A stretch of 39,823 nt of DNA from Acidimicrobiaceae bacterium. Its GTDB lineage: Bacteria; Actinomycetota; Acidimicrobiia; Acidimicrobiales; Aldehydirespiratoraceae. A program made the position numbers and the translations under genes. Position 1 is the first letter of the stretch. Each line of letters starts with the position of its first letter. The notes under the pieces were generated by a model. That model was not told where the DNA came from. It worked only from the letters and a program-made list of their open reading frames with translations, and searched no databases. This document shows, piece by piece, positions 2,371 to 18,073 of the stretch. Where the stretch lies: assembly GCA_009843915.1 (NCBI GenBank), contig VYCM01000016.1, forward strand, positions 1 through 39,823. The letters are read 5' to 3'.

Positions 2371-3258
2371 TCAACCGGACTCACCGGCCGCCTCGGCCCG
2401 CAGACCCTCAAACAGGTCGCGCTCGGGCAGCTCTGCCGGGCGGGGGCCGCGGGCCAGCACATAGTCGTCGTAGGGGTGAATGGAACGCTCAACCTCCGGG
2501 GGCAACCCGAACCAGAAGGTCGACTCGGGATCGATCTGGGTGGCGTGGGCCAGCAGCCCCTCTATGCGCGCGTCGATGAACCCGTCCACGGGCACCTGAG
2601 TCGTGATCTGGTCATCGGTGGACGGGCGCTTGAACCACCAGTCGTTGTAGGGCGACTTCAGGCCGAGGTCCTGGAATGCCTGGTGTCGCTCCTCGATGCG
2701 CTTGCGGGACCAGAGCGTGTAGTAGAGCTTGGCCGGCGACCAGGGCTCGCCGAGGTCGGGACGGTAATGGGCATCGCCGGCGCGCTCGAAGGCAGGGATT
2801 GAGATGTCGTGGACCCGCACATGGTCCGGGTGCATGTAACCGCCCTGATCCTCGGGATAGGTCACGATCACCTGGGGCCGGTGTCGGCGGATCACCGACA
2901 CCAGGCGGCTCACCGCCTCGTCCAGGTCGGCGTTGGCGAAGCAGTCGGGATGGGTGTTGGCCTCCGACCCTTCCATTCCGGAGTCGCGATATCCGAGCAT
3001 CACCACTTCGTCGTAGCCGATCACGGCTGCCGCCCGGGCCAGTTCCTCGGCCCGTATCTCGGCCAGCTTCTCGGCCATAGAGGGCTTGTCCAGCGCCGGG
3101 TTGAGGATCTCGCCCTCCTCGCCTCCGGTACAGCACACCAGCACGGTGCGCACGCCCTCGGCGTGGTAGCGGGCCACCGTGGGCGCGCCCTTGGACGCCT
3201 CGTCGTCGGGATGGGCGTGAACGGTGAGCAGGCAGAGCCGGCCGGCGGAGGGCACCAT
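2371..3258 (-). CDS. mca: mycothiol S-conjugate amidase
   Basis: A 295-residue LmbE-fold zinc amidase, close to the usual length of Mca (about 290). It cleaves mycothiol S-conjugates of toxins and drugs, releasing a mercapturic acid for export and GlcN-Ins for recycling. The zinc site is HAHPDDE at residues 14-20 (ligands His16 and Asp19) and HPDH at 143-146 (His146). CTGGEEGEILNPA and the Mca-style C-terminal half (KLYYTLWSRKRI, YNDWWFKRP) separate it from the shorter-range MshB deacetylase. The ATG at 3258 is supported by TAGCTT at 3267-3272 (reverse strand), 8 nt upstream, with no ribosome binding site, suggesting a leaderless transcript. It forms an operon with the SCP2 gene behind it. 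Mycothiol is specific to Actinobacteria. Confidence 0.92.
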   Translation of the reverse strand: MVPSAGRLCLLTVHAHPDDEASKGAPTVARYHAEGVRTVLVCCTGGEEGEILNPALDKPSMAEKLAEIRAEELARAAAVIGYDEVVMLGYRDSGMEGSEANTHPDCFANADLDEAVSRLVSVIRRHRPQVIVTYPEDQGGYMHPDHVRVHDISIPAFERAGDAHYRPDLGEPWSPAKLYYTLWSRKRIEERHQAFQDLGLKSPYNDWWFKRPSTDDQITTQVPVDGFIDARIEGLLAHATQIDPESTFWFGLPPEVERSIHPYDDYVLARGPRPAELPERDLFEGLRAEAAGESG

Positions 3259-3326
3259 GGCCGGTGAAGCTAGCGCCGAGGCGCGCTGCATCGCACCGCG
3301 CCGGTTCGGCGTCGCCGCGCTCGCCG

Positions 3327-4568
3327 CTACCCAGTCGGCAGGCTCGACTCCAACGGCTCGAAGACCATCGCCGTGTCGTCGTCCCTGTTGATGAGCCGCC
3401 AACCGCACATCTCGGCCAGGCGATCTCGCCCCTCGTCGGGGCCGCTGGCGATGAGAGAATCACCGGGCGCAAGCCGTACCTCGCCGCGCGGCCGGTAGCG
3501 GTACTGGCCCCCGCGGCGGATGGCCAACACAGTGAAGCCCGGCTCGATGTTCAGCCTCAGGTCGGCCAGCGTCCTGCCTTCGACCGCGCAATCCTCCGCC
3601 ACCGGGATGTGCACCACCACCTCGTCGCTGTCGCCGAGCGCGACAGCCAATATCGGGTGGATGTCTTCCTGGCGCTCGATGATCCACACCATCTGCTGGG
3701 CCTGGTCTCCCAGATCCTCCGCCGCCTGCGACAGCTGCAGCAGCCCCCTCAGACCCGAGTGGTCCACATGTTCCCTGGCGGCGCGCAGCACCCACTCCTC
3801 CAGGCGGTCCTTCATCTCGTCGAGGCGATCCTCGAGGTGGCGCACCTCAGCGGCAAGGCTCTCGTCCCGAAGCACCAGCGACGAGTAGGCCAAGCCGACG
3901 GCCACCTCCGAGAGGTCCTTCATCTCCACCAGCACGTCCACCGCACGGTCGAGATCCGTGGCGACCGGACCGTCGGGGACTTCCGGCGGCGTCCAGTCCG
4001 GAGACCCGGCCAGGCTGCGCAACTCGTCGATGCCGTCGGGCGATCCCCGCAGAAACAGCACGTCATCGGGGACGAGGACCGTGTCGCCTCCCACATCGGT
4101 AATCCACTCGCGCTCCCGACGCACCGCCATCACCCGCATGCCCATCTTGGCCGGCATCTCGTGGTCGGCCAAGTGGCGGTGGGCGAGAAGCGAGCCGTCC
4201 GAGACCAGCACCCGGTGCGACACCTCCTCGGCTGCACTCAGGTCGGCCACAAGCTCCGCCGGTATGCCGACCCGGTGGGTGACGATGCGGGCAATGTCGA
4301 CGGCGTCGTTGGCGATGCGCTCGATGGCCGAGATCACCTGTAGCACCGACGACATGCCGTCGGCGTCGCGGGGGTGGCGCACGGCCAGGATGCACACCGC
4401 CCTCATGTCCTGCACCAGATGGCTCATCCGCTCCTCGAGCGCGCCCACCTCGTCGGCCATGTCGGGATCGCCGAAGTAGAGCGCGGCGTAGGCGAGGTCC
4501 ACCATCAACTCGGAGGTGTCCTTGGCCTCGGCCAGCATCTCGCGCAGATTGCGAGGTCTGTCTTCCAT
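3327..4568 (-). CDS. tandem PhoU-like / TrkA-C (RCK_C) domain protein
   Basis: A 413-residue soluble protein made of two copies of the same two-domain unit. A PhoU-like helical region (about 5-105 and 207-302) is followed each time by a TrkA C-terminal ligand-binding domain (about 115-188 and 316-390). The internal repeat is visible: AKDTSELMVDLAYAAL in copy 1 aligns with MKDLSEVAVGLAYSSL in copy 2. RCK_C domains gate ion channels and transporters by binding small ligands. There is no membrane segment. It is followed 49 bp upstream by the MgtE-like transporter on the same strand, so it is likely the cytoplasmic regulatory subunit of that transporter (inference). A strong AGGAGGG ribosome binding site precedes the ATG. 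Similar proteins are commonest in archaea. Confidence 0.8.
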   Translation of the reverse strand: MEDRPRNLREMLAEAKDTSELMVDLAYAALYFGDPDMADEVGALEERMSHLVQDMRAVCILAVRHPRDADGMSSVLQVISAIERIANDAVDIARIVTHRVGIPAELVADLSAAEEVSHRVLVSDGSLLAHRHLADHEMPAKMGMRVMAVRREREWITDVGGDTVLVPDDVLFLRGSPDGIDELRSLAGSPDWTPPEVPDGPVATDLDRAVDVLVEMKDLSEVAVGLAYSSLVLRDESLAAEVRHLEDRLDEMKDRLEEWVLRAAREHVDHSGLRGLLQLSQAAEDLGDQAQQMVWIIERQEDIHPILAVALGDSDEVVVHIPVAEDCAVEGRTLADLRLNIEPGFTVLAIRRGGQYRYRPRGEVRLAPGDSLIASGPDEGRDRLAEMCGWRLINRDDDTAMVFEPLESSLPTG

Positions 4569-4617
4569 CAGGTCCCTCCTGGAATCATCGTAGGGCTCAA
4601 GCGCGACGCCGTGCCCA

Positions 4618-5859
4618 TCAGACCACGCCCACCAAGACCACCGAGACGATCAGGGTGAACGCCCCGGCCAGGTCCAGAGACGAGGTGACCATGGGAATGC
4701 CGTAGGTGTCGGGGTCGACTCCGAACCGCACGGCCGCGAGCGTCCCGTAGTAGGCCACCACCACGATCAGCACAGTGGCCAGAAGGCCGCCGAGCACAGC
4801 CACCGCGACCAGGTCGGCCAGCGGAGGGCCGGCATGGCCCGTCAGACCGGCCGCCATCGACGACACCAGGCCGAGCAGTGCGAACACCGGGAGTGACAGC
4901 GCGAAAGTGGTGGCGAGATCGACTCTCGCCTCCCCCGAGGGCACGACGGAGGGCCTGGCCAGGCCCAGATGCAGCTTGGTGGACAGGCGGCTCGACAGCA
5001 CCCCCCCGAGCGCTCCGGCCGTGGCCAGGTAGCCCGGCAGCAGAACGAGCAGAACCGGGAAAGTGACGAAGTCCTCGATGCGCTTCTCCACCGTGATCCC
5101 GGCCACCAGATCGAGCATTCCCGCCGCGACCAGCACGGGCATCGACTCACGCATGATCGTGCGCAACTCCAGCAGCCTGCTCCGCAGCCCCCACGCCACC
5201 GACAACGCGGCCAGGACCCCCAGGGCCCACGCCATCGACGGCGTGAGGATGTCGAACCCTGCGAGTTCGGCCGCCACCACCAGCGAGGGCAGGGTCACCA
5301 CATCGCCTGCGACCGTCACCATTGGTGCGACCACGTTGTCGAGATCCCAACCGAACCGCACCGCGCCGGCTGTGGTCGCCAGAGTGATCGCCAGCACGAC
5401 GAAGGCGGCGATCAGACATCCGAGCGCCGAGATCACCACGAAGTCCGAGAGGCTCATCGTCGGCGAGACGTTGAAGGCCAGTGCGATGCCTTTAGCCATG
5501 ATGGCCAGCACCACACCCAGCGCCAGGCTCAACGCCACAGACGCGACCGCGTTCTGCGCCATCACCGAGTCCCGCCGGCCCGACAGCCGGAATGTGCCAG
5601 CGTGGATGGCGGTGCCGAGCCGGCTGCCCAGCGCCCCGAAGATGTTGCCCTTCACCGCGATGGCCGCCGGTACCAGAAGCAGCAAGCCCGGCAATTCCTC
5701 AAGCGTGTCGGTGATGGACGCCAGGATCAGACCGGCGACCAGGCTGGCGAGGGCAGCCATCACCAGCGCAGCGAACGCGCTGCGCACCGCCAGCAGGTCG
5801 CGCACCCAGCGCGTGGCCGCCCGCGTCAGCGCGTGAGGAATGCGACCACGTGCAGCCAT
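4618..5859 (-). CDS. MgtE-family divalent cation transporter, membrane domains only
   Basis: A 413-residue membrane protein with about ten hydrophobic segments, arranged as two MgtE transmembrane domains in tandem (about 25-230 and 240-410). Each copy has the family's paired signatures: PAAIAVKGNIFGALGSRLGT and DLDNVVAPMVTVAGD in the first, PGYLATAGALGGVLSSRLST and DPDTYGIPMVTSSLDL in the second. Classical bacterial MgtE carries an N domain and CBS domains that sense Mg2+, and works as a dimer of one membrane domain. Here these are absent and the duplication would make a one-chain pseudo-dimer, as in SLC41 proteins. The next gene on the strand encodes the PhoU/TrkA_C protein that probably replaces the missing sensor. 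Substrate Mg2+ or another divalent metal is inferred. Confidence 0.85.
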   Translation of the reverse strand: MAARGRIPHALTRAATRWVRDLLAVRSAFAALVMAALASLVAGLILASITDTLEELPGLLLLVPAAIAVKGNIFGALGSRLGTAIHAGTFRLSGRRDSVMAQNAVASVALSLALGVVLAIMAKGIALAFNVSPTMSLSDFVVISALGCLIAAFVVLAITLATTAGAVRFGWDLDNVVAPMVTVAGDVVTLPSLVVAAELAGFDILTPSMAWALGVLAALSVAWGLRSRLLELRTIMRESMPVLVAAGMLDLVAGITVEKRIEDFVTFPVLLVLLPGYLATAGALGGVLSSRLSTKLHLGLARPSVVPSGEARVDLATTFALSLPVFALLGLVSSMAAGLTGHAGPPLADLVAVAVLGGLLATVLIVVVAYYGTLAAVRFGVDPDTYGIPMVTSSLDLAGAFTLIVSVVLVGVV

Positions 5860-5925
5860 TCAGCAAGTGTGCTCCGTCAGGCGGAGCTTCGGCGCGATCT
5901 TGCGCGTGTCATCATCTCGCTTGGC

Positions 5926-5931
5926 TACCGT
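5926..5931 (+). promoter_or_regulatory. -10-like TACCGT of a probable leaderless parA transcript
   Basis: TACCGT ends 6 nt before the GTG start at 5938 and there is no ribosome binding site. The same hexamer and spacing occur before several other genes in this window. Confidence 0.45.
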
Positions 5932-5937
5932 GCAGGC

Positions 5938-6732
5938 GTGACAGTGATCGCTCTGGTCAACCAGAAGGGCGGTGTCGGCAAGACGACCACGGCGCTCGGG
6001 CTGGCGTCGGCTGCTTGGACACGACGGACCCCGAGCCTTGTGATCGACCTCGATCCTCAGGGCAACGCAACCACCGGACTCGGGCTATGGGCACCCGATA
6101 CCAACGTGGACGAAGCCCTGGCGTCCGACCGGCCGGGAGTCGTCGCGAGCCTGGCCGTTCCATCGGGATGGCCCGACGACAAGGGTCTGCCTCCGAAGGT
6201 TGTGGCATCCACTCCAGCGCTGGCGGGCCGGGAGCGGCAGCTGCTCTCCGACCCTGTCGGCGCCCAGGACCGCCTCCGGCTGGCTCTGTCGGGTTACCAG
6301 GGCCTCGTGCTGATCGACTGTCCCCCGTCGCTCGGACTCTTGACCATCAACGCCCTGTTCGCCGCAGACGCGGCCCTGGTAGTCACCGAGCCCAGCGCGT
6401 GGGCCTCCGACGGGGTCAGCGAGATCATGCGGACCATCGGACGCGTCGCGGCGAGGAAACCGTCGGGCCTCCGAGTTGCGGGGGTAGCCGTTAACCGGCT
6501 CGCTCGCACCCGGGATTCCCGCTACTGGAACGAGCAGCTCATCGCCGACCACGGGAATCTGGTGATGCCCCCGGTCCGCTTGCGGGCTGCCGTGACCGAG
6601 GCCGCCGCTCGCTCACGTCCCATACACGCCCTGCCGCCCCGTCGAGGCGCAGCCGAGGCGTGCGCCGAGTTCGATCTCCTCTACGATCTAGTCGTCGGCA
6701 CACCAACACCGGAGGATCGCAATGGTCTATGA
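5938..6732 (+). CDS. ParA/MinD-family ATPase
   Basis: A 264-residue ParA-type ATPase. The deviant Walker A KGGVGKTTT is at residues 10-18. A Walker B-type strand, GLVLIDCPPSLG, lies near 123, and DLDPQGNATTGLG near 40 is typical of ParA proteins that bind DNA as ATP dimers. No parB is seen next to it, so this is either an orphan ParA or partitions another cargo. The open frame extends far upstream, antisense to the transporter gene, but the homology begins at VTVIALVNQKGG, so the GTG at 5938 is chosen. It overlaps the next small membrane protein gene by 11 bp, suggesting that the two work together. Confidence 0.85.
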   Translation: MTVIALVNQKGGVGKTTTALGLASAAWTRRTPSLVIDLDPQGNATTGLGLWAPDTNVDEALASDRPGVVASLAVPSGWPDDKGLPPKVVASTPALAGRERQLLSDPVGAQDRLRLALSGYQGLVLIDCPPSLGLLTINALFAADAALVVTEPSAWASDGVSEIMRTIGRVAARKPSGLRVAGVAVNRLARTRDSRYWNEQLIADHGNLVMPPVRLRAAVTEAAARSRPIHALPPRRGAAEACAEFDLLYDLVVGTPTPEDRNGL

Positions 6733-12818: not shown

Positions 12819-14267
12819 CTAGGTGATCCCAGGGCCGCTGGCCGGCGTATATCTGGTGCTCGGCGAAGGCGGGGCACGCCCGACCGCGGCACCGTTGAGA
12901 TCCGCAGTCGCGATCGGCGGATCACAGCTGGCCAGGTCGCCTGTGCTCGCGCCGCCGGGCAGACTTCGAAGCCGCGTGGCCCAAGTGATGACCCCATAGG
13001 AGTCGACCTTACGTACGAGCCGACGGTGAGTCCTGTGAAGCCACAGGTGGCAGCTGCTGCAGAGGGCGACCAGATTCTCGACGTCGGTCGGTCCCCAATC
13101 CTCGTCCCACTCATCTGCATGATGGAGCCGGCAGCGATGCATCGGAGCCCGGCACAGCACGCAACCGCGGTCCCGCAGAGCGACCGCTACATACTGGGCA
13201 GTATTGGCCAAACGCTTCATGCGCCCCAGCCACAAGGGTTGGCCGTCCCCGCCAAAGATGGCGCTGACTAGCCGGTCATCGGGCGAGATGCTGTCGAGCA
13301 CCGTTGGGGGAACCGGACCCACGCCGATGATCTCGCAGGATCCGTCACGGTCCGTGCCGTCTACAAGCCCCACAGTCACCGCGATGATCCGCCCCGTCGG
13401 CAAGCGCCGCGAGCCCCGCGGGCCGTCGTCAGCCGGGAGGGGCTCGTGTGTCAGAGCGTCCAACCCGGTACACAGTTCGAAGATGGCGTCCATCGTCCGC
13501 TGGCCGTTGTTGCGCACCGCATCGGGGGTCCCGTCTCGGCCGCCGTCCTTGCGCCACAGGTAGTCCTTGCGCTCGTCCACCGCCTGCTCCAGCACGCCGA
13601 AACTGGCCGGGTCCATCTCGCCCTTGAGCACTCCCATGCCGTCGCTGCCTACAAACACGTCAGCCTTGCGGCTGTTCCGCTGAGCCTTGAGCAAGTCGCC
13701 GCCCGCTGACGGGTCGTGGCGTTGCGCAAACCTCTTGGCCACCCGGCCGAATGTCCCAGAGTCTCGGGTAGCAGCCTGGTGCAGCAACTCATCCGAGCCG
13801 TCCACGACGGATGCCCCGCACTGCTTGGCCGCAGACCCCAGAGAGAACACGCTCGCTAGAGACAGCTCGCCACAATCCACCAGCCGGCCAACATTGGGCA
13901 TCTCCTCAATCTGGCGCGCCGCCTGGGTCACACGCTTGGCCGAACTCCCCGACAGCTTCGCTCCACCGACTAGAGCCTCACGCGCCGAGCCAGCCCGCAG
14001 CGCCTCCAGCCCGCTCACAGCTCGCAGTGTCAGCGCATCCGCCAGAGCCTTCAGCCGCCCGGCTCCGCACACGACCTGGCTCAACTCGTCCTCGGCCAAA
14101 CCCTCCAACGACACCGACCGCAGCGCAGACTCGGCCAGTGCGAGCAGGTCCGAGACAGACGGTTCGCAGGTGGTTCCGCTTCCGTTGCTCGGACCGTGGG
14201 TTTGAAGAGTGCCCTGTCCAGTCCCGCGGAACTCCGCTTCCACATCAAGAACGCTTGTTCGTTTCAT
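12819..14267 (-). CDS. DUF222 / HNH endonuclease domain protein
   Basis: A 482-residue protein of the DUF222 (13E12-type) family that is multiplied in actinobacterial genomes. A long helical DUF222 region (about 60-330) is followed by an HNH nuclease fold. The zinc-binding pair is Cys369-x2-Cys372 and Cys403-x2-Cys406, with His383, Asn398 and His411 as the HNH core (LHHADEW, ENLVALCSSCH). The remaining C-terminal tail is Pro/Ser-rich. The ATG at 14267 begins MKRTSVLDVEAEF and is preceded by TAATGT 7 nt upstream without a ribosome binding site. The cellular role is unknown; mobile-element or DNA-processing functions have been proposed for the family. It is co-directional with parC, 80 bp ahead. 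Confidence 0.85.
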   Translation of the reverse strand: MKRTSVLDVEAEFRGTGQGTLQTHGPSNGSGTTCEPSVSDLLALAESALRSVSLEGLAEDELSQVVCGAGRLKALADALTLRAVSGLEALRAGSAREALVGGAKLSGSSAKRVTQAARQIEEMPNVGRLVDCGELSLASVFSLGSAAKQCGASVVDGSDELLHQAATRDSGTFGRVAKRFAQRHDPSAGGDLLKAQRNSRKADVFVGSDGMGVLKGEMDPASFGVLEQAVDERKDYLWRKDGGRDGTPDAVRNNGQRTMDAIFELCTGLDALTHEPLPADDGPRGSRRLPTGRIIAVTVGLVDGTDRDGSCEIIGVGPVPPTVLDSISPDDRLVSAIFGGDGQPLWLGRMKRLANTAQYVAVALRDRGCVLCRAPMHRCRLHHADEWDEDWGPTDVENLVALCSSCHLWLHRTHRRLVRKVDSYGVITWATRLRSLPGGASTGDLASCDPPIATADLNGAAVGRAPPSPSTRYTPASGPGIT

Positions 14268-14625
14268 GCTCACTACATTACGCACCCCCTGTGACAACAC
14301 TTCTTGAAAATGCATAAAATATGGATGAAGGGGCCAATGCTTGCAGTCATCCCGCAGCGCGCGTGGGCCGGATGTGCTGGCGCGGTGACCGGCAGAGGTC
14401 AAACGCATGCGTCGGTTCAGGCGACTCAACCCCCGACGCGCCACCCGGACCGGCACTTTCGACCACCTCTTCGGCCGCTCGCTTGCGACTTGGATGAGCG
14501 GGCCGCACCCATCGACCGCGACGCCTGCAACTCCGACGATGCCGCGCAACTGCTTCCCCAGTGCTTCGAGAGTGCTGCGCCTGTTGCTTCCCGTTCAGCT
14601 ATTGCAATCGCTATTCTGGGTGATC
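14268..14625. other. 358-bp divergent intergenic region
   Basis: This stretch separates the HNH gene (reverse) from the GHKL ATPase gene (forward). Its left end is AT-rich compared with the rest of the window and carries the HNH promoter hexamer TAATGT (14275-14280, reverse strand). Its right end carries TATTCT (14612-14617), 8 nt before the GTG at 14626. I see no convincing gene or RNA in the middle; the short open frames there have no ribosome binding site or recognisable sequence. Confidence 0.5.
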
Positions 14626-15471
14626 GTGCGCGGTGACAAGCCATATGGGGAGATGCAGCTGGAGTTCCCGCACAACAACGGAGGCGAGGCGGGCTTTGCG
14701 TCACCTCATGTGAACCGCGAGTCGGTCACGGAAGAAGTCGTTGTCCGGGAGTTGTTGCAGAACGCCCTAGACGCCTCGCCGGGCGCTGGGCCAGTGAGAG
14801 TCGAGTTCTCTCATCAGAGCATCCCTACGCAGCAACTGCCCCTCATCAAAGACTACACGGCCGCCTTCAATGCGGCCCGGAAGCACAGGCTCCACAAGGT
14901 GGATAGCCCTGCGGAGCGGCAGGCGATCGACCGAATCCGGAGCTGCCTGCAATCTGCTAGCCGCACGACTTCGGTGCTGGCCTGCATCGACCGAGGACGG
15001 GGCATCGACTCAACGGCATTGAAGCACCTGTACAACACGGGCGATACGACAAAGCGCTCAGGCCGAGGATCCGTTGGTCTTGGACACCTCACGGCCTTCG
15101 CGGCGAGTGATCTTCGTTATGTCCTGTACGCGGGTCGAAACACGTCGGGCAGTGAGACTTTTGGAGGGCACGCGATATTGGCGACAAGCAGCAACCAAGG
15201 AATGCAGCGCGACGCCCATGGCTATATCCGAGGTGCCCAAGAGATGCAGGGCAGCCCAGCATCGCAGGCTCTTGGATCCTCAGAAGTCCCTGACCTCGTA
15301 CGGTCATGGCTGCCGAACCATGGCGCTGCGGGGTCCGTAGTCGCCATATTGGGATATGGACCAACCGCACGCGCTGTGCGCGGCAGCTTCGAAGACAGAG
15401 TGCTGGCCGCCGCAGCCAAGAGCTTCGTGGTGGCTGTTCATCAGGGCCAACTCACCGTTGGGGAGTTATAG
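14626..15471 (+). pseudogene. GHKL (MORC/HSP90-like) ATPase, 3'-truncated by the transposon
   Basis: An open frame of 281 residues containing a complete Bergerat ATP-binding fold but little else. The N box is ELLQNALDAS, the G1 box is CIDRGRGID and the G2 box is GSVGLGHLTAF. The protein continues to FVVAVHQGQLTV and then runs into the terminal repeat of the inserted element, which supplies the last codons and a stop. Full-length relatives have a second domain and more, so at least half of the gene is missing, and no continuation is found on the far side of the element. GTG 14626 is chosen because TATTCT lies 8 nt before it; ATG 14653 (after GGGGAG) is the alternative. Some MORC/MutL-like bacterial ATPases belong to restriction-type defence islands, but that role here is only a possibility. 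Confidence 0.7.
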
Positions 15472-15482
15472 ACTTGACTTGA
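15459..15482 (+). repeat. left terminal inverted repeat of the transposon
   Basis: 24 bp identical to the reverse complement of 18050-18073. It begins TGGGGAGTTATAG and ends with two overlapping TTGAC units; the second becomes the -35 box of the transposase promoter. Confidence 0.92.
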
Positions 15483-15507
15483 CAATCGGGGTGGGCTACG
15501 GTACACT
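15479..15507 (+). promoter_or_regulatory. transposase promoter TTGACA-N17-TACACT
   Basis: A consensus -35 box TTGACA (15479-15484), exactly 17 bp of spacer and TACACT (15502-15507). The start codon follows 7 nt later, so transcription should begin at or next to the A of the ATG and give a leaderless mRNA. The -35 box overlaps the inner end of the left terminal repeat, so transposase binding there could repress its own gene (inference). Confidence 0.75.
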
Positions 15508-15514
15508 GGTGGAC

Positions 15515-16474
15515 ATGAACACCGAGGTAGAGACGCACAAAGCACCCGGTCGGCACTGGAGGCAGGGCATCACCCTGATCGAACTGGCCGAGATGTTCCC
15601 CACCGAGGAAGCGGCAGAGCAGTGGTTCGAGTCGGTCGTGTGGGCCAACGGCCGGGTCTGTGGCCATTGCGGAGCCGATGACACCTACGCCGTGAAGTCC
15701 GGCAAGCCGATGCCGTACCGGTGCCGGACCTGCAAGCGGTACTTCGGGATCAAGACCGGCACGGTCATGGCGCAGTCGCCTCTGCCGTTGAAGGTGTGGG
15801 TCTATGCGATCTACCTGGACATCACGAACCTGCGGGGCATCTCCGCGATGGCGCTGCACCGTTCGGTCGGGGTGTGCTACAAGACGGCGTGGTTCGTTCA
15901 GCAGCGCATTCGCGAGGCGTTCACCGCTGAGGGTCCACCGGTGCCGTTCACCGGTCCGGTAGAGGTCGATGAGACCTATGTCGGTGGACGTGCCAAGAAC
16001 ATGCACGCCCGAGTTCGCCGGGAGAAGATCACCGGCCGCGGCGGCGTGGACAAGACCGCTGTCGTCGGTGCTCGGGACCGGGCCACCGGCAAGGTCACCG
16101 CCCAGGTCATCGAGAACGTGGACGGCCCGACGCTGCGAGGGTTCGTGGAGGACCACGCGGCTGCGGAGTCGATGGTCTACACCGACGGCGCGACCGCCTA
16201 CCGCGGCCGCGCCAACCACGAGGCCGTCAACCACACGGTCGGCGAGTACGTGCGGGGCAAGGCCCACACCAACGGCGTCGAGAGCTTCTGGGCGACGCTG
16301 AAGCGTGGGATCGAGGCGTCGTTCTTCCACATCTCCCCCAAGCACGCCCAGCGCTATGTGGACGAGTTCTGCTGGCGGCACAACGTCCGGGACCTGGACA
16401 CGATCCGCCAGATGCAGGACTTGGTGGCCCGCATGGTCGGCAAGCGCATCATGTACCGCGAACTGGTGTCCTGA
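15515..16474 (+). CDS. IS1595-family transposase
   Basis: A 319-residue transposase with the typical two-part layout. An N-terminal zinc ribbon, Cys49-x2-Cys52 ... Cys70-x2-Cys73 (CGHCGADD, CRTCKRYF), is followed by a DDE/ISXO2-like catalytic domain with Asp152 (VDETYVGGR), Asp224 (VYTDGATAY) and Glu256 (HTNGVESFW). The length and motif spacing are full, so the enzyme looks intact. It cuts and rejoins the element's ends. The ATG at 15515 (MNTEVETHKAPG) directly follows a strong promoter. The open frame continues upstream, but that part is terminal repeat and the end of the ATPase gene. The methyltransferase gene starts 17 bp after its stop. Confidence 0.93.
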   Translation: MNTEVETHKAPGRHWRQGITLIELAEMFPTEEAAEQWFESVVWANGRVCGHCGADDTYAVKSGKPMPYRCRTCKRYFGIKTGTVMAQSPLPLKVWVYAIYLDITNLRGISAMALHRSVGVCYKTAWFVQQRIREAFTAEGPPVPFTGPVEVDETYVGGRAKNMHARVRREKITGRGGVDKTAVVGARDRATGKVTAQVIENVDGPTLRGFVEDHAAAESMVYTDGATAYRGRANHEAVNHTVGEYVRGKAHTNGVESFWATLKRGIEASFFHISPKHAQRYVDEFCWRHNVRDLDTIRQMQDLVARMVGKRIMYRELVS

Positions 16475-16491
16475 CCCGCTGGCTGCTGGTT

Positions 16492-16974
16492 GTGAGTGGA
16501 CAACCGAACTTCACCAACCGGACGTTGTTCCATCACGACAACTTGGCTGTGATGCGCGGCATGAACACTGCGACGATTGATCTGATAGCGACTGATCCGC
16601 CATTCAACAAAGGCAAAGACTTTCACGCCACTCCCGACTCGCTCGCCAAGGGCGGCAAGTTCCAAGATCGGTGGCGCTGGGACGACGACGTAGAAGGCGA
16701 ATGGATCGACCAACTCCAAGACGACTGGCCGAACGTTTGGAGGATCATCGCCGCAGCGCGTGGATCGTGGGGCGACGATCTGGGCGCGTTCCTGTGCTTC
16801 ATGGCCGTCCGGCTGCTGGAAATGCATCGTGTCCTCAAATCGACTGGCACGCTGTATCTGCATTGCGACCCGACCGCCGGCCATTACTTGAAGTCGCTGT
16901 TGGATGCGATCTTCGGACGTAAGCAGTTTCGCAATGAGATCATCTGGTGCTATATGGGGGGGGGCATTCAGTGA
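16492..16974 (+). CDS. DNA methyltransferase-HNH, N-terminal part (frameshifted)
   Basis: The first 160 residues of a beta-class DNA methyltransferase: the catalytic motif IV comes first (TDPPFNKGKDF, residues 34-44) and the AdoMet-binding motif I lies in the later part, read in another frame. HHDNLAVMRGM and GTLYLHCDPTAGHYLK are typical of type III/T4-like N6-adenine or N4-cytosine methyltransferases. This frame ends 10 nt after a run of nine G residues (16956-16964). The protein continues in the -1 frame from 16965. With seven or ten G residues the two halves would form one protein of about 460 residues. GTG 16492 is the start, just after the transposase gene. Confidence 0.8.
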   Translation: MSGQPNFTNRTLFHHDNLAVMRGMNTATIDLIATDPPFNKGKDFHATPDSLAKGGKFQDRWRWDDDVEGEWIDQLQDDWPNVWRIIAAARGSWGDDLGAFLCFMAVRLLEMHRVLKSTGTLYLHCDPTAGHYLKSLLDAIFGRKQFRNEIIWCYMGGGIQ

Positions 16975-17876
16975 GGGACTTCCCTCGCAAGCACGATCTG
17001 ATCCTGCGCTATGCGAAGACCAAGCAATGGACATTCAATCCCGATGCGGTGCGAGTGCCCTATGACAGTGACTACAAAGCGACCGTCTTCAGGTCCGAAG
17101 GTTCCCGCGCCCCCGGCAAGACCTACACCCGCCACCCCGACGGCAAGGTTGTTGAGGACTGGTGGCGCGACATGCCGCGGCCCTACACCAACCGCAAGAA
17201 AGGCGACGATGCTACGAAGCGGCGCAAGGCGAAGCAGCGCCGCAAGACTCAATACCGCTACGGAGGCGCGACCGAGAAGCCCCTCGCGCTGTATAAGCGC
17301 ATGATCGAGGCTTCGTCGAATCCCGGTGATGTTGTGTTGGATCCGTTCTGCGGCTGCGCCACCACACCCGTCGCGGCCGAACTGCTAGATCGTCAGTGGG
17401 TCGGCATCGACATATGGGACGGCGCTCACGAGGCGGTCCTGACTCGCTTCGCTGACGAGCTGCTGGTTTCGCCCGGCGAGGACCGCAACGTCATGTTCAC
17501 CTTCGGCGAAGTGACCTACCTCACCGGTCCACCAACTCGAACAGACGAAGGAGAGACTGCCGCGCCGTTCCTGCAAGTCACCGAACGCTACGCCGAACCC
17601 TCAGGCCCGAAGATGACCCGCGCCGAGATGGTCGAACATCTGCTCGCCCAGAACGGCTGTGTCTGCCAAGGATGCGACCGACGCTTCGACGACGTTCGCT
17701 ACCTCCAACTCGATCACAACCGGCCACGTTCAGACGGCGGCTGGAACCACATCACCAACAGGGTGCTGCTGTGCGGACCCTGCAACCAACTCAAGTCCAA
17801 CATCTACACTCTCAGCGGCCTACGACGCCAGAACCACAAACTGGGCTACATGGCCCGGACCGGAGGCAAACCATGA
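16947..17876 (+). CDS. DNA methyltransferase-HNH, C-terminal part
   Basis: The continuation of the methyltransferase in the shifted frame. The coordinates begin at an in-frame GTG, but the part that matters starts at HSVRDFPRKHDLILRYAKT, a block that directly follows the EIIWCY strand in intact relatives. Motif I is VLDPFCGCATT (about residues 130-140) with GID downstream. A linker then leads to an HNH nuclease domain: Cys240-x2-Cys243, LQLDHNRPRSDGG with Asp256-His257, Asn271 and Cys276-x2-Cys279. A methyltransferase and a nuclease in one chain suggests a compact restriction-modification enzyme or a self-guarding nuclease cargo (inference). The stop codon overlaps the next start as ATGA. Confidence 0.82.
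   Translation: MLYGGGHSVRDFPRKHDLILRYAKTKQWTFNPDAVRVPYDSDYKATVFRSEGSRAPGKTYTRHPDGKVVEDWWRDMPRPYTNRKKGDDATKRRKAKQRRKTQYRYGGATEKPLALYKRMIEASSNPGDVVLDPFCGCATTPVAAELLDRQWVGIDIWDGAHEAVLTRFADELLVSPGEDRNVMFTFGEVTYLTGPPTRTDEGETAAPFLQVTERYAEPSGPKMTRAEMVEHLLAQNGCVCQGCDRRFDDVRYLQLDHNRPRSDGGWNHITNRVLLCGPCNQLKSNIYTLSGLRRQNHKLGYMARTGGKP
16956..16964 (+). repeat. nine-G homopolymer at the methyltransferase frameshift
   Basis: Nine consecutive G residues lie in the coding region exactly where the reading frame is lost. Nine keeps the gene off; seven or ten restore the frame. Explanations are slipped-strand phase variation, programmed -1 ribosomal or transcriptional slippage, or a sequencing error. Confidence 0.85.
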
Positions 17877-18004
17877 CCACCGCCAAGCGCCGGCGCCGCA
17901 AAGGCCTCAAAGCCAACTACGGCAACGCCACCCCCGAAGACGTAGCCCGAGCGCTCCACGCCTACCGGCCAGACCGCAAACCGGCTGTCAAGCAGCCGAA
18001 GTAG
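17873..18004 (+). CDS. small basic transposon-encoded protein (43 aa)
   Basis: A 43-residue protein that starts MTTAKRRRRKGLKANYGNAT and ends in KPAVKQPK, very rich in Lys and Arg (about a third of residues). It has no known domain and no membrane segment. Its ATG overlaps the methyltransferase-HNH stop codon (ATGA), so it is translated with that gene. It lies 46 bp from the right terminal repeat. The charge suggests nucleic acid binding; it could help the nuclease/methyltransferase or the transposase. This is inference, and the gene has no recognised family. Confidence 0.55.
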   Translation: MTTAKRRRRKGLKANYGNATPEDVARALHAYRPDRKPAVKQPK

Positions 18005-18049
18005 GACGGCGGATCACGGCAACAGCACACCCGCCAACCCTACCCGCCA

Positions 18050-18073
18050 TCAAGTCAAGTCTATAACTCCCCA
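18050..18073 (-). repeat. right terminal inverted repeat of the transposon
   Basis: A perfect inverted copy of 15459-15482. Just outside it the sequence CCACC-TTAAT-GGTGG (18071-18085) forms a small inverted repeat that begins within the outer C run. Confidence 0.92.

Follow-up and report, generated by a model that had tools for sequence, protein, structure and literature searches.

Background

Insertion sequences (ISs) of the IS1595 family that carry passenger genes, as well as mobile restriction-modification (RM) units bounded by inverted repeats, are already known from the portions of the literature considered here. The relevant passages of PMC11891212 and PMC5704250 describe transporter ISs (tISs) of the IS1595 family, e.g. 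ISNha5, tISCpe8 and MTnSag1; the methyltransferase passenger given there as an example belongs to IS220 of the IS1380 family, and RM cargo in IS1595 elements is not named in those passages. RM genes bounded by inverted repeats, with a short target duplication, were reported by Furuta, Abe and Kobayashi (2010), as cited in a passage of PMC3874152, which also treats RM systems on transposons in general as known. An excerpt of PMC10214660 mentions a type I RM cluster of Acidithiobacillus caldus as the neighbour of an IS1595 element. No description of IS1595 elements with RM cargo was found among the titles and abstract openings searched. Here we describe a 2615-bp element located at positions 15459-18073 of a 39,823-bp stretch of DNA from an Acidimicrobiaceae bacterium (the window; contig VYCM01000016.1), and compare it with relatives at other loci (L numbers) in other genomes (G numbers). 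It is probably a transporter-type IS1595 transposon with an exchangeable RM slot, which here holds a switched-off, phase-variable single-chain RM enzyme.

The IS1595 element of the window

The window is part of genome G000, a 3.24-Mb assembly of 151 contigs that is 87.79% complete. The element contains, in this order, a terminal repeat, a transposase gene, a methyltransferase/HNH gene, a 43-aa open reading frame (ORF) and a second terminal repeat:

15459-15482, + strand: left terminal inverted repeat, TGGGGAGTTATAGACTTGACTTGA, complementary at 24/24 positions to 18050-18073
15479-15507, + strand: sigma-70-like promoter match, TTGACA-17-TACACT, a consensus match only, overlapping the inner edge of the left repeat
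15515-16474, + strand: IS1595-family transposase, 319 aa, open frame (PF12762, PF12760, NF033547)
16492-16974, + strand: ORF A, encoding the N-terminal portion of a beta-class N6/N4 DNA methyltransferase, with motif IV DPPF (PF01555, E=7e-12, profile 1-83)
16947-17876, + strand: ORF B, in another frame, with the target-recognition region, the motif I part of the methyltransferase and then HNH (PF01555, profile 92-217, E=7.3e-27)
16956-16964, + strand: run of nine G residues (G9) at the junction of both frames, a candidate phase-variation tract
17664-17801, + strand: HNH nuclease domain in ORF B (PF01844, E=4.1e-9, residues 240-285, LDHNRPRSDGG...N...LLCGPCNQLK)
17873-18004, + strand: 43-aa ORF, small and basic, with the motif YGNATPEDVARAL; relatives whose cargo is unrelated have similar ORFs next to their right end
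18050-18073, + strand: right terminal inverted repeat, pairing at 24/24 positions with the left one

An earlier note, made from the window alone, had claimed perfect 24-bp terminal repeats, an apparently intact IS1595-type transposase, a gene for a small 43-aa protein and a tightly spaced layout on one strand. All of these were confirmed, the transposase by its 319-aa open frame and by its matches to Pfam (DDE_Tnp_IS1595, E=1.1e-38; N-terminal Zn_ribbon_IS1595, E=4.7e-9) and NCBIfam (NF033547, 184 bits, cut-off 75). As in a tIS, the passenger gene sits between the transposase and a terminal repeat. Regarding membership of the IS1595 family, the transposase with its zinc ribbon and the terminal repeats are present and the 8-bp target duplication is absent; the assignment rests on the first two, because later rearrangement can erase a target duplication. 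A decayed duplication (5/8 matches) was also considered and rejected, since 88% of random placements equal it.

The methyltransferase/HNH gene spans positions 16492-17876 and is split over two frames, ORF A and ORF B, the stop codon of ORF A falling just past the frame break. The fusion on a single chain that the earlier note had described is therefore not found in the window: the frame is broken at the G9 run, and the one chain expected of a single-chain type II RM enzyme (type IIC/IIG-like) is interrupted. Judged from its two halves, the cargo appears to be such an enzyme, comprised of a beta-class methyltransferase with its own target-recognition region and a fused HNH nuclease; the methyltransferase is probably adenine-specific.

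No second copy of the element was detected in the incomplete assembly of G000. Searched against the genome contig collection, the window transposase gave L009 as its sole match. In viral contigs no match was found to the exact 24-bp repeat, to the transposase or to ORF B.

RM cargo of related IS1595 elements

Relatives were searched by transposase and not by cargo. Matches were obtained in 13 of the 51 genomes of the family (1e-40), 14 of the 298 of the order (1e-70), 10 of the 346 of the phylum (1e-70) and 9 of 297 (1e-100) in the phylum of G660, the genome of L009 (Acidobacteria), which is taken as a phylum other than that of the window. Sixty neighbourhoods were fetched, among which L115 repeats L009; the matches read were 23/24, 19/20, 18/19 and 17/17 for the family, order, phylum and G660 phylum, respectively. 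An RM system follows 10 of the 23 transposases read from the family search. In total, 14 repeat-bounded IS1595 elements with RM-type cargo were identified, including the window, L015 and L055; the remainder, and four loci whose right repeat was not found, are the following:

L070: N6_N4 methylase and BglII; repeat-bounded
L072 (window's own genome): N6_N4 methylase and a nuclease candidate of 207 aa; repeat-bounded
L074 (window's own genome): N6_N4 methylase and a nuclease candidate (PADLOC REase_II model, 2.4e-8); repeat-bounded
L073: methylase and TdeIII; repeat-bounded
L081: C5 methylase and an unnamed 247-aa protein; repeat-bounded
L084: methylase and a protein matching the PADLOC REase_II model (4.9e-69); repeat-bounded
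L104: methylase-Mrr fusion, opposite to the transposase; repeat-bounded
L111: MT-A70 and an unnamed 235-aa protein; repeat-bounded
L122: C5 methylase and HNH; repeat-bounded
L127: methyltransferase-HNH in a single frame, opposite to the transposase; repeat-bounded
L133: methylase and a nuclease 52% identical to that of L074; repeat-bounded
L071: D12 methylase and NotI; right repeat not found
L077: methylase and MvaI/BcnI; right repeat not found
L082: split EcoRI methylase and GmrSD_N; right repeat not found
L056: methyltransferase-HNH; right repeat not found

The nucleases of the slot span seven Pfam families (BglII, NotI, TdeIII, MvaI/BcnI, GmrSD_N, Mrr and HNH) and the methylases five (N6_N4, D12, C5, MT-A70 and EcoRI-type). 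For the proteins of L072, L081 and L111 the label nuclease is based solely on position. PDB sequence searches matched the methyltransferases MboIIA, CcrM and RsrI and gave no match for the 207-aa candidate of L072. L096, labelled as RM in the trees described below, has its right repeat at the edge of the fetched DNA and was excluded from the 14; L120 (methyltransferase and nuclease by eye, no Pfam match) and L088 (an HNH gene alone) were likewise not counted.

The differing RM systems of related elements suggest a transposon family with an exchangeable RM slot. In this IS1595 lineage the slot would correspond to the segment between the transposase stop codon and the small tail ORF, and it often appears to hold a type II-like RM system. 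In a sister clade the cargo consists of PemK, Fic, SocA-Panacea or IrrE with NYN proteins, plus PIN on a Roseomonas plasmid. We also observed, at L095, L099, L100, L113, L094 and L125, cargo of the PemK/MazF-type toxin, Fic, SocA-Panacea, IrrE with NYN, PIN and ApeA_NTD1 types. The IS1595 transposases of six plasmid records (L089-L094) have no adjacent RM gene; L091 contains a DNA methyltransferase gene about 4 kb from the transposase, and L094 a PIN-domain gene and a small ORF.

Insertion of whole units and exchange of cargo

At 1e-20, ORF B matched only two of 296 genomes of its phylum, its own and G263 (same family, other genus). The G263 locus, L015, contains, within 22-bp repeats, an IS1595 transposase 53% identical to that of the window, a methyltransferase-HNH frame uninterrupted over 415 codons (40% identical to ORF B) and a 35-aa ORF. 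Because the same three-gene order recurs there, the gene order of the window is beyond chance. L015 (G263:C7) is surrounded by an exact target duplication, AAAGGTTG, and its flank is duplicated in tandem: one copy is interrupted by the element, the other, about 300 bp downstream, is uninterrupted and is, by its sequence, a natural empty site.

Exact 8-bp duplications were found around 27 of 38 repeat-bounded elements of all cargo types (random right ends, 0.5%), and they enclose the cargo in 10 of the 14 RM-bearing ones. These duplications indicate that in the relatives units with cargo are inserted as wholes. The cargo has the orientation of the transposase in 12/14 repeat-bounded RM elements and is reversed in L104 and L127. 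Exact 8-bp duplications were also observed at L069 and L080, whose cargo is an S-layer-homology protein (Pfam SLH in L069, by eye in L080).

Comparison of closely related elements localized the borders of the slot. L070 and L071, present in one genome, share 88.5% DNA identity from the repeat to the transposase stop codon, past which no similarity was detected in the DNA comparison; the cargo is BglII-type in the former and NotI-type in the latter. L070 and L072 have a shared transposase, unrelated cargo and then a shared last 120-130 bp (small ORF and right repeat). L073 and L055 have in common the transposase plus a stretch of the tail ORF. By these comparisons, the cargo is exchanged at the transposase stop codon.

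On a tree of 66 transposases the distribution of RM cargo requires 13 changes (shuffled mean 16.6; 17/500 shuffles as low), and on a first tree of 50 transposases it requires 9 (shuffled 13.2; 4/500 as low). RM cargo occupies 17 of the 44 rows that belong to the window's half of the larger tree vs 2 of 22 in the other half. Truncated L054 and L088 were left out of both trees, and L093 (long branch), L115 (same place as L009) and L120 and L121 (partial) out of the second. From these counts of changes against shuffles, turnover is faster for the cargo than for the transposase, and the cargo tends modestly to cluster.

The small tail ORF presumably belongs to the transposon, because it is kept while the cargo changes. 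Tail ORFs with (YGN)ATPEDVARAL or a variant of it occur in the window, L015, L069 (with SLH cargo), L070, L072, L074, L082, L084, L122 and L133, and a divergent form in L055 and L073; among the right ends examined, those of L081, L111, L127 and L075 showed no such ORF. A motif pattern, built after the sequences had been seen, matched five right ends and one site elsewhere in 327 kb read in six frames; the other members were assigned by eye. A Pfam scan of four of these small ORFs gave no match.

Methyltransferase-HNH genes and their frame-changing repeats

At 1e-25 the methyltransferase-HNH protein of G263 had matches in 41 of the 298 genomes of the order, many of them to other methyltransferases; 20 neighbourhoods were taken for reading. 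In L054, L055 and L056 the methyltransferase-HNH gene is again paired with IS1595 genes; the transposase of L054 carries an internal deletion, and in L055 the frame is broken ahead of HNH. L054 and L056 are paralogues in one genome (G453), whose gene ends are 92% and 86% identical at the DNA level, with a target-recognition middle that has no detectable similarity, which fits an exchange of target specificity. The closest relative found of the window enzyme (65% to ORF A, 52% to ORF B) is that of L127, from the sample of the G660 phylum; it lies within IS1595 repeats and an exact duplication. In L060 (G438:C84:1600-11000, positions 2726-6084) a methyltransferase-HNH gene with a C10 tract lies inside 19/20-bp repeats together with a split IS5-type transposase, which points to the same kind of cargo on an unrelated IS family. 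In viral contigs the G263 enzyme matched three loci, L046, L047 and L048, the last two at 21% identity; tblastn gave no HNH match in L046. The plasmid matches L012 and L013 are methyltransferases without an HNH match and outside IS1595, and were rejected as examples of this cargo.

Both domains are present in one open frame in L049, L053, L054, L056, L057, L058, L059, L060, L127 and L015. When 630 kb were scanned for simple repeats that change the frame, 18 tracts were found, or 17 arrays if the two halves of that in L127 are counted as one. Of the 13 methyltransferase-HNH genes, 18 kb in all, six contain such tracts, where the other 11 arrays would predict 0.33 (P about 1e-6): (i) G9 in the window, (ii) GA10 in L015, (iii) GA10 in L058, (iv) G10 in L055, (v) C10 in L060 and (vi) a heptamer array in L127. 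Frame-changing tracts are thus enriched in the one-chain gene; among control methyltransferase loci, 1 of 26 (L066) has one. In L015, the ATG that overlaps the transposase stop codon precedes (GA)10 and does not share the frame of the methylase, and the same mismatch holds for the start codons that precede the tracts of L055, L058 and L060; the open frames of L015, L058 and L060 have no in-frame start codon before the methylase. The array of L127, of about 18 units behind an ATG, partly reads N, so that its frame is not readable. L049, L053, L054, L056, L057 and L059 start in frame and are free of tracts. A GT repeat of 10.5 units at positions 4200-4220 of L082 coincides with the frame break of its EcoRI-type methylase, behind an IS1595 transposase, so that a switch may also be present in RM genes of a second kind.

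From these features the single-chain enzyme looks phase-variable, and the window copy reads OFF at G9. A one-chain enzyme would suit such a switch, because one frame shift could silence modification and restriction together.

Flanking genes

The HATPase_c match of the ORF at positions 14407-15471 (+ strand) is partial and weak (PF02518, E=6e-5, under the cut-off); the stop codon of this ORF falls within the left repeat, which suggests truncation by the element. Just upstream of this ORF, a gene for a DUF222-HNH protein occupies positions 12819-14549 (- strand). A similar HNH protein, recognized by eye, also adjoins the solo methyltransferase-HNH gene of L058.

Alternative explanations

A number of observations weigh against an IS1595 transposon with an exchangeable RM slot and a phase-variable enzyme. 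When the flanking sequences of the window copy were compared, no exact 8-bp target duplication was found. RM genes follow just 3 of 17 transposases in the G660 phylum sample, and some close relatives have none, e.g. L069, with its SLH protein, and the bare ISs L075 and L076, among others. Clustering of RM cargo on the larger transposase tree is modest, with the cargo labels assigned by the author, and L073 sits on a 3.8-kb contig that could be misbinned. L056, whose transposase is nearest to that of the window, has LDQ in place of LDH, i.e. Gln for the His of the HNH motif, and no right repeat. Of the 13 methyltransferase-HNH genes read, 6 are located within or next to IS1595 genes (window, L015, L054, L055, L056 and L127) and one (L060) is inside an IS5-type element; no IS1595 transposase is present in the fetched DNA of the other six (L049, L053, L057, L058, L059 and L062), although L049 has just 742 bp of contig upstream and a transposase could be cut off. 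As for the tracts, G9 alone is unsurprising (1.4 runs of at least nine G or C are expected in the window), six relatives lack the G9 run, and the type of repeat is not conserved between genes. Those of the window, L015 and L127 were known before the scan, and for the other ten genes the count is 3 against about 0.25 (about 0.002 by hand). All tracts that have a readable frame are off, as would also be expected from decay or assembly error.

The earlier note had itself named two findings that would count against its proposal, and on both the outcome is mixed. As regards other copies ending after the transposase, no second copy was detected in the incomplete assembly of G000, and a cargo-less relative exists, L075 (1238 bp, with a target duplication); as regards the enzyme being common outside IS1595 elements, the 13 genes are divided as given above. 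As a class, IS1595 elements with an RM unit are supported and more widespread than the note supposed, with 14 repeat-bounded elements, 10 of them flanked by exact 8-bp target duplications; its description of a self-contained mobile RM unit is weak for the window copy, with its broken frame and absent duplication.

The window enzyme might be a decaying pseudogene, or its G run misassembled, with no switch involved and the cargo of such transposons being often lost; we regard this as rather unlikely. The broken frame, the absent target duplication and the truncated flank of the window agree with it, as does decay in other relatives (the transposase deletion of L054, the altered HNH motif of L056), and homopolymers are error-prone in assemblies. 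However, tracts occur in 6/13 methyltransferase-HNH genes where 0.33 are expected, their units are homopolymeric, dinucleotide and heptameric, and neither decay nor assembly error would favour GA10 or a heptamer array right behind a start codon. It is less probable still that the methyltransferase serves transposition itself, in that it marks the ends or the transposase promoter or regulates them, the nuclease domain being incidental. The cargo is co-oriented with the transposase in 12 of the 14 elements, as if co-expressed, the methyltransferase frame of L056 has been kept though the His of its HNH motif is lost, and the control of IS10 by Dam is a precedent. Against this stand the five methylase and seven nuclease Pfam families, the reversed cargo of L104 and L127, and the consideration that a fixed role at the ends needs no restriction enzyme and would not tolerate a changing specificity.

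That bare IS1595 elements landed beside RM genes in defence islands, so that the outer repeats and the association reflect chance or selection bias, is very improbable. RM systems do cluster in defence islands, according to a passage of PMC3874152, and no right repeat was found in L056, L071, L077 and L082; but exact 8-bp duplications enclose the unit with its cargo in 10 of the 14 RM elements, which refutes this explanation for those elements, and homology ends at the transposase stop codon in the pair L070/L071 and resumes at the tail ORF and right repeat in L070/L072.

Proposed mechanism and significance

In the proposed mechanism of the slot-bearing transposon, the transposase would move the whole unit via its repeats and generate an 8-bp target duplication; such movement is supported in relatives by the exact duplications and the uninterrupted flank copy of L015. 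The promoter at the left repeat (one sigma-70-like match found vs 0.3 expected from shuffles) may drive transposase and cargo as one operon, and the two would then be co-transcribed. Once expressed, and judging from the protein families, the methyltransferase would mark the host and the nuclease would attack unmarked DNA, resulting in defence and possibly in a penalty for loss of the element. The one-chain form would be toggled by its frame-changing repeats, modification and restriction going on or off together.

More tentatively, and with somewhat less than an even chance in our estimate, IS1595 elements might represent a cross-phylum vehicle for addiction and defence modules, in which (i) the transposase and tail protein are fixed and the slot receives one complete RM system after another, unrelated to each other (in the sister clade, PemK-, Fic-, SocA-, IrrE- or PIN-type proteins as well), (ii) one-chain RM cargo repeatedly gains its own phase-variation tract, with which the transposon could enter a host with restriction off and switch it on later, (iii) transposase-less inverted-repeat RM units are non-autonomous derivatives and (iv) the tail protein is a new accessory factor.

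Two long-standing questions concern the movement of type II RM systems between genomes and the survival of a host on entry of a restriction enzyme. An IS lineage with its own transposase, clean RM swaps, exact duplications and frame-shifting repeats offers a concrete vehicle for both. Further leads are a compact transposon whose cargo slot is defined and restriction enzymes of new specificity.

Comparison with known systems

Phase-variable type IIG and type III methyltransferases with simple repeats are known. The present enzymes resemble these, and the translocating variable restriction locus of pneumococci (PMC6265443), in that the frame or specificity of an RM system would be switched by repeats or recombination; they differ in that the gene is carried by an IS1595 (or IS5-type) transposon and that the type of repeat differs between copies. 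With the tISs ISNha5, tISCpe8 and MTnSag1 the elements share an IS1595 transposase, short terminal repeats and internal passengers, whereas the passengers named in the cited passages of PMC11891212 and PMC5704250 are regulators, lincomycin resistance and mobilisation genes, unlike the RM systems found here. The units of Furuta, Abe and Kobayashi are alike in having inverted repeats and a short target duplication around RM genes; as reported in the passage of PMC3874152, they move unlinked to a known mobile element, while each unit described here has its own IS1595 transposase.

The systems nearest in concept are the toxin-antitoxin (TA) modules of Tn3-family transposons (PMC7157771) and the defence cargo of Tn7-like elements (PMC8649781). 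In the former, addiction-type modules are likewise integral and exchanged parts of the transposon, combined there with a Tn3 transposase and TA pairs and here with IS1595 and RM systems. The latter share a rich defence cargo, which in the elements described here takes the form of one compact cargo operon within an IS-like unit of 2.4-4 kb.

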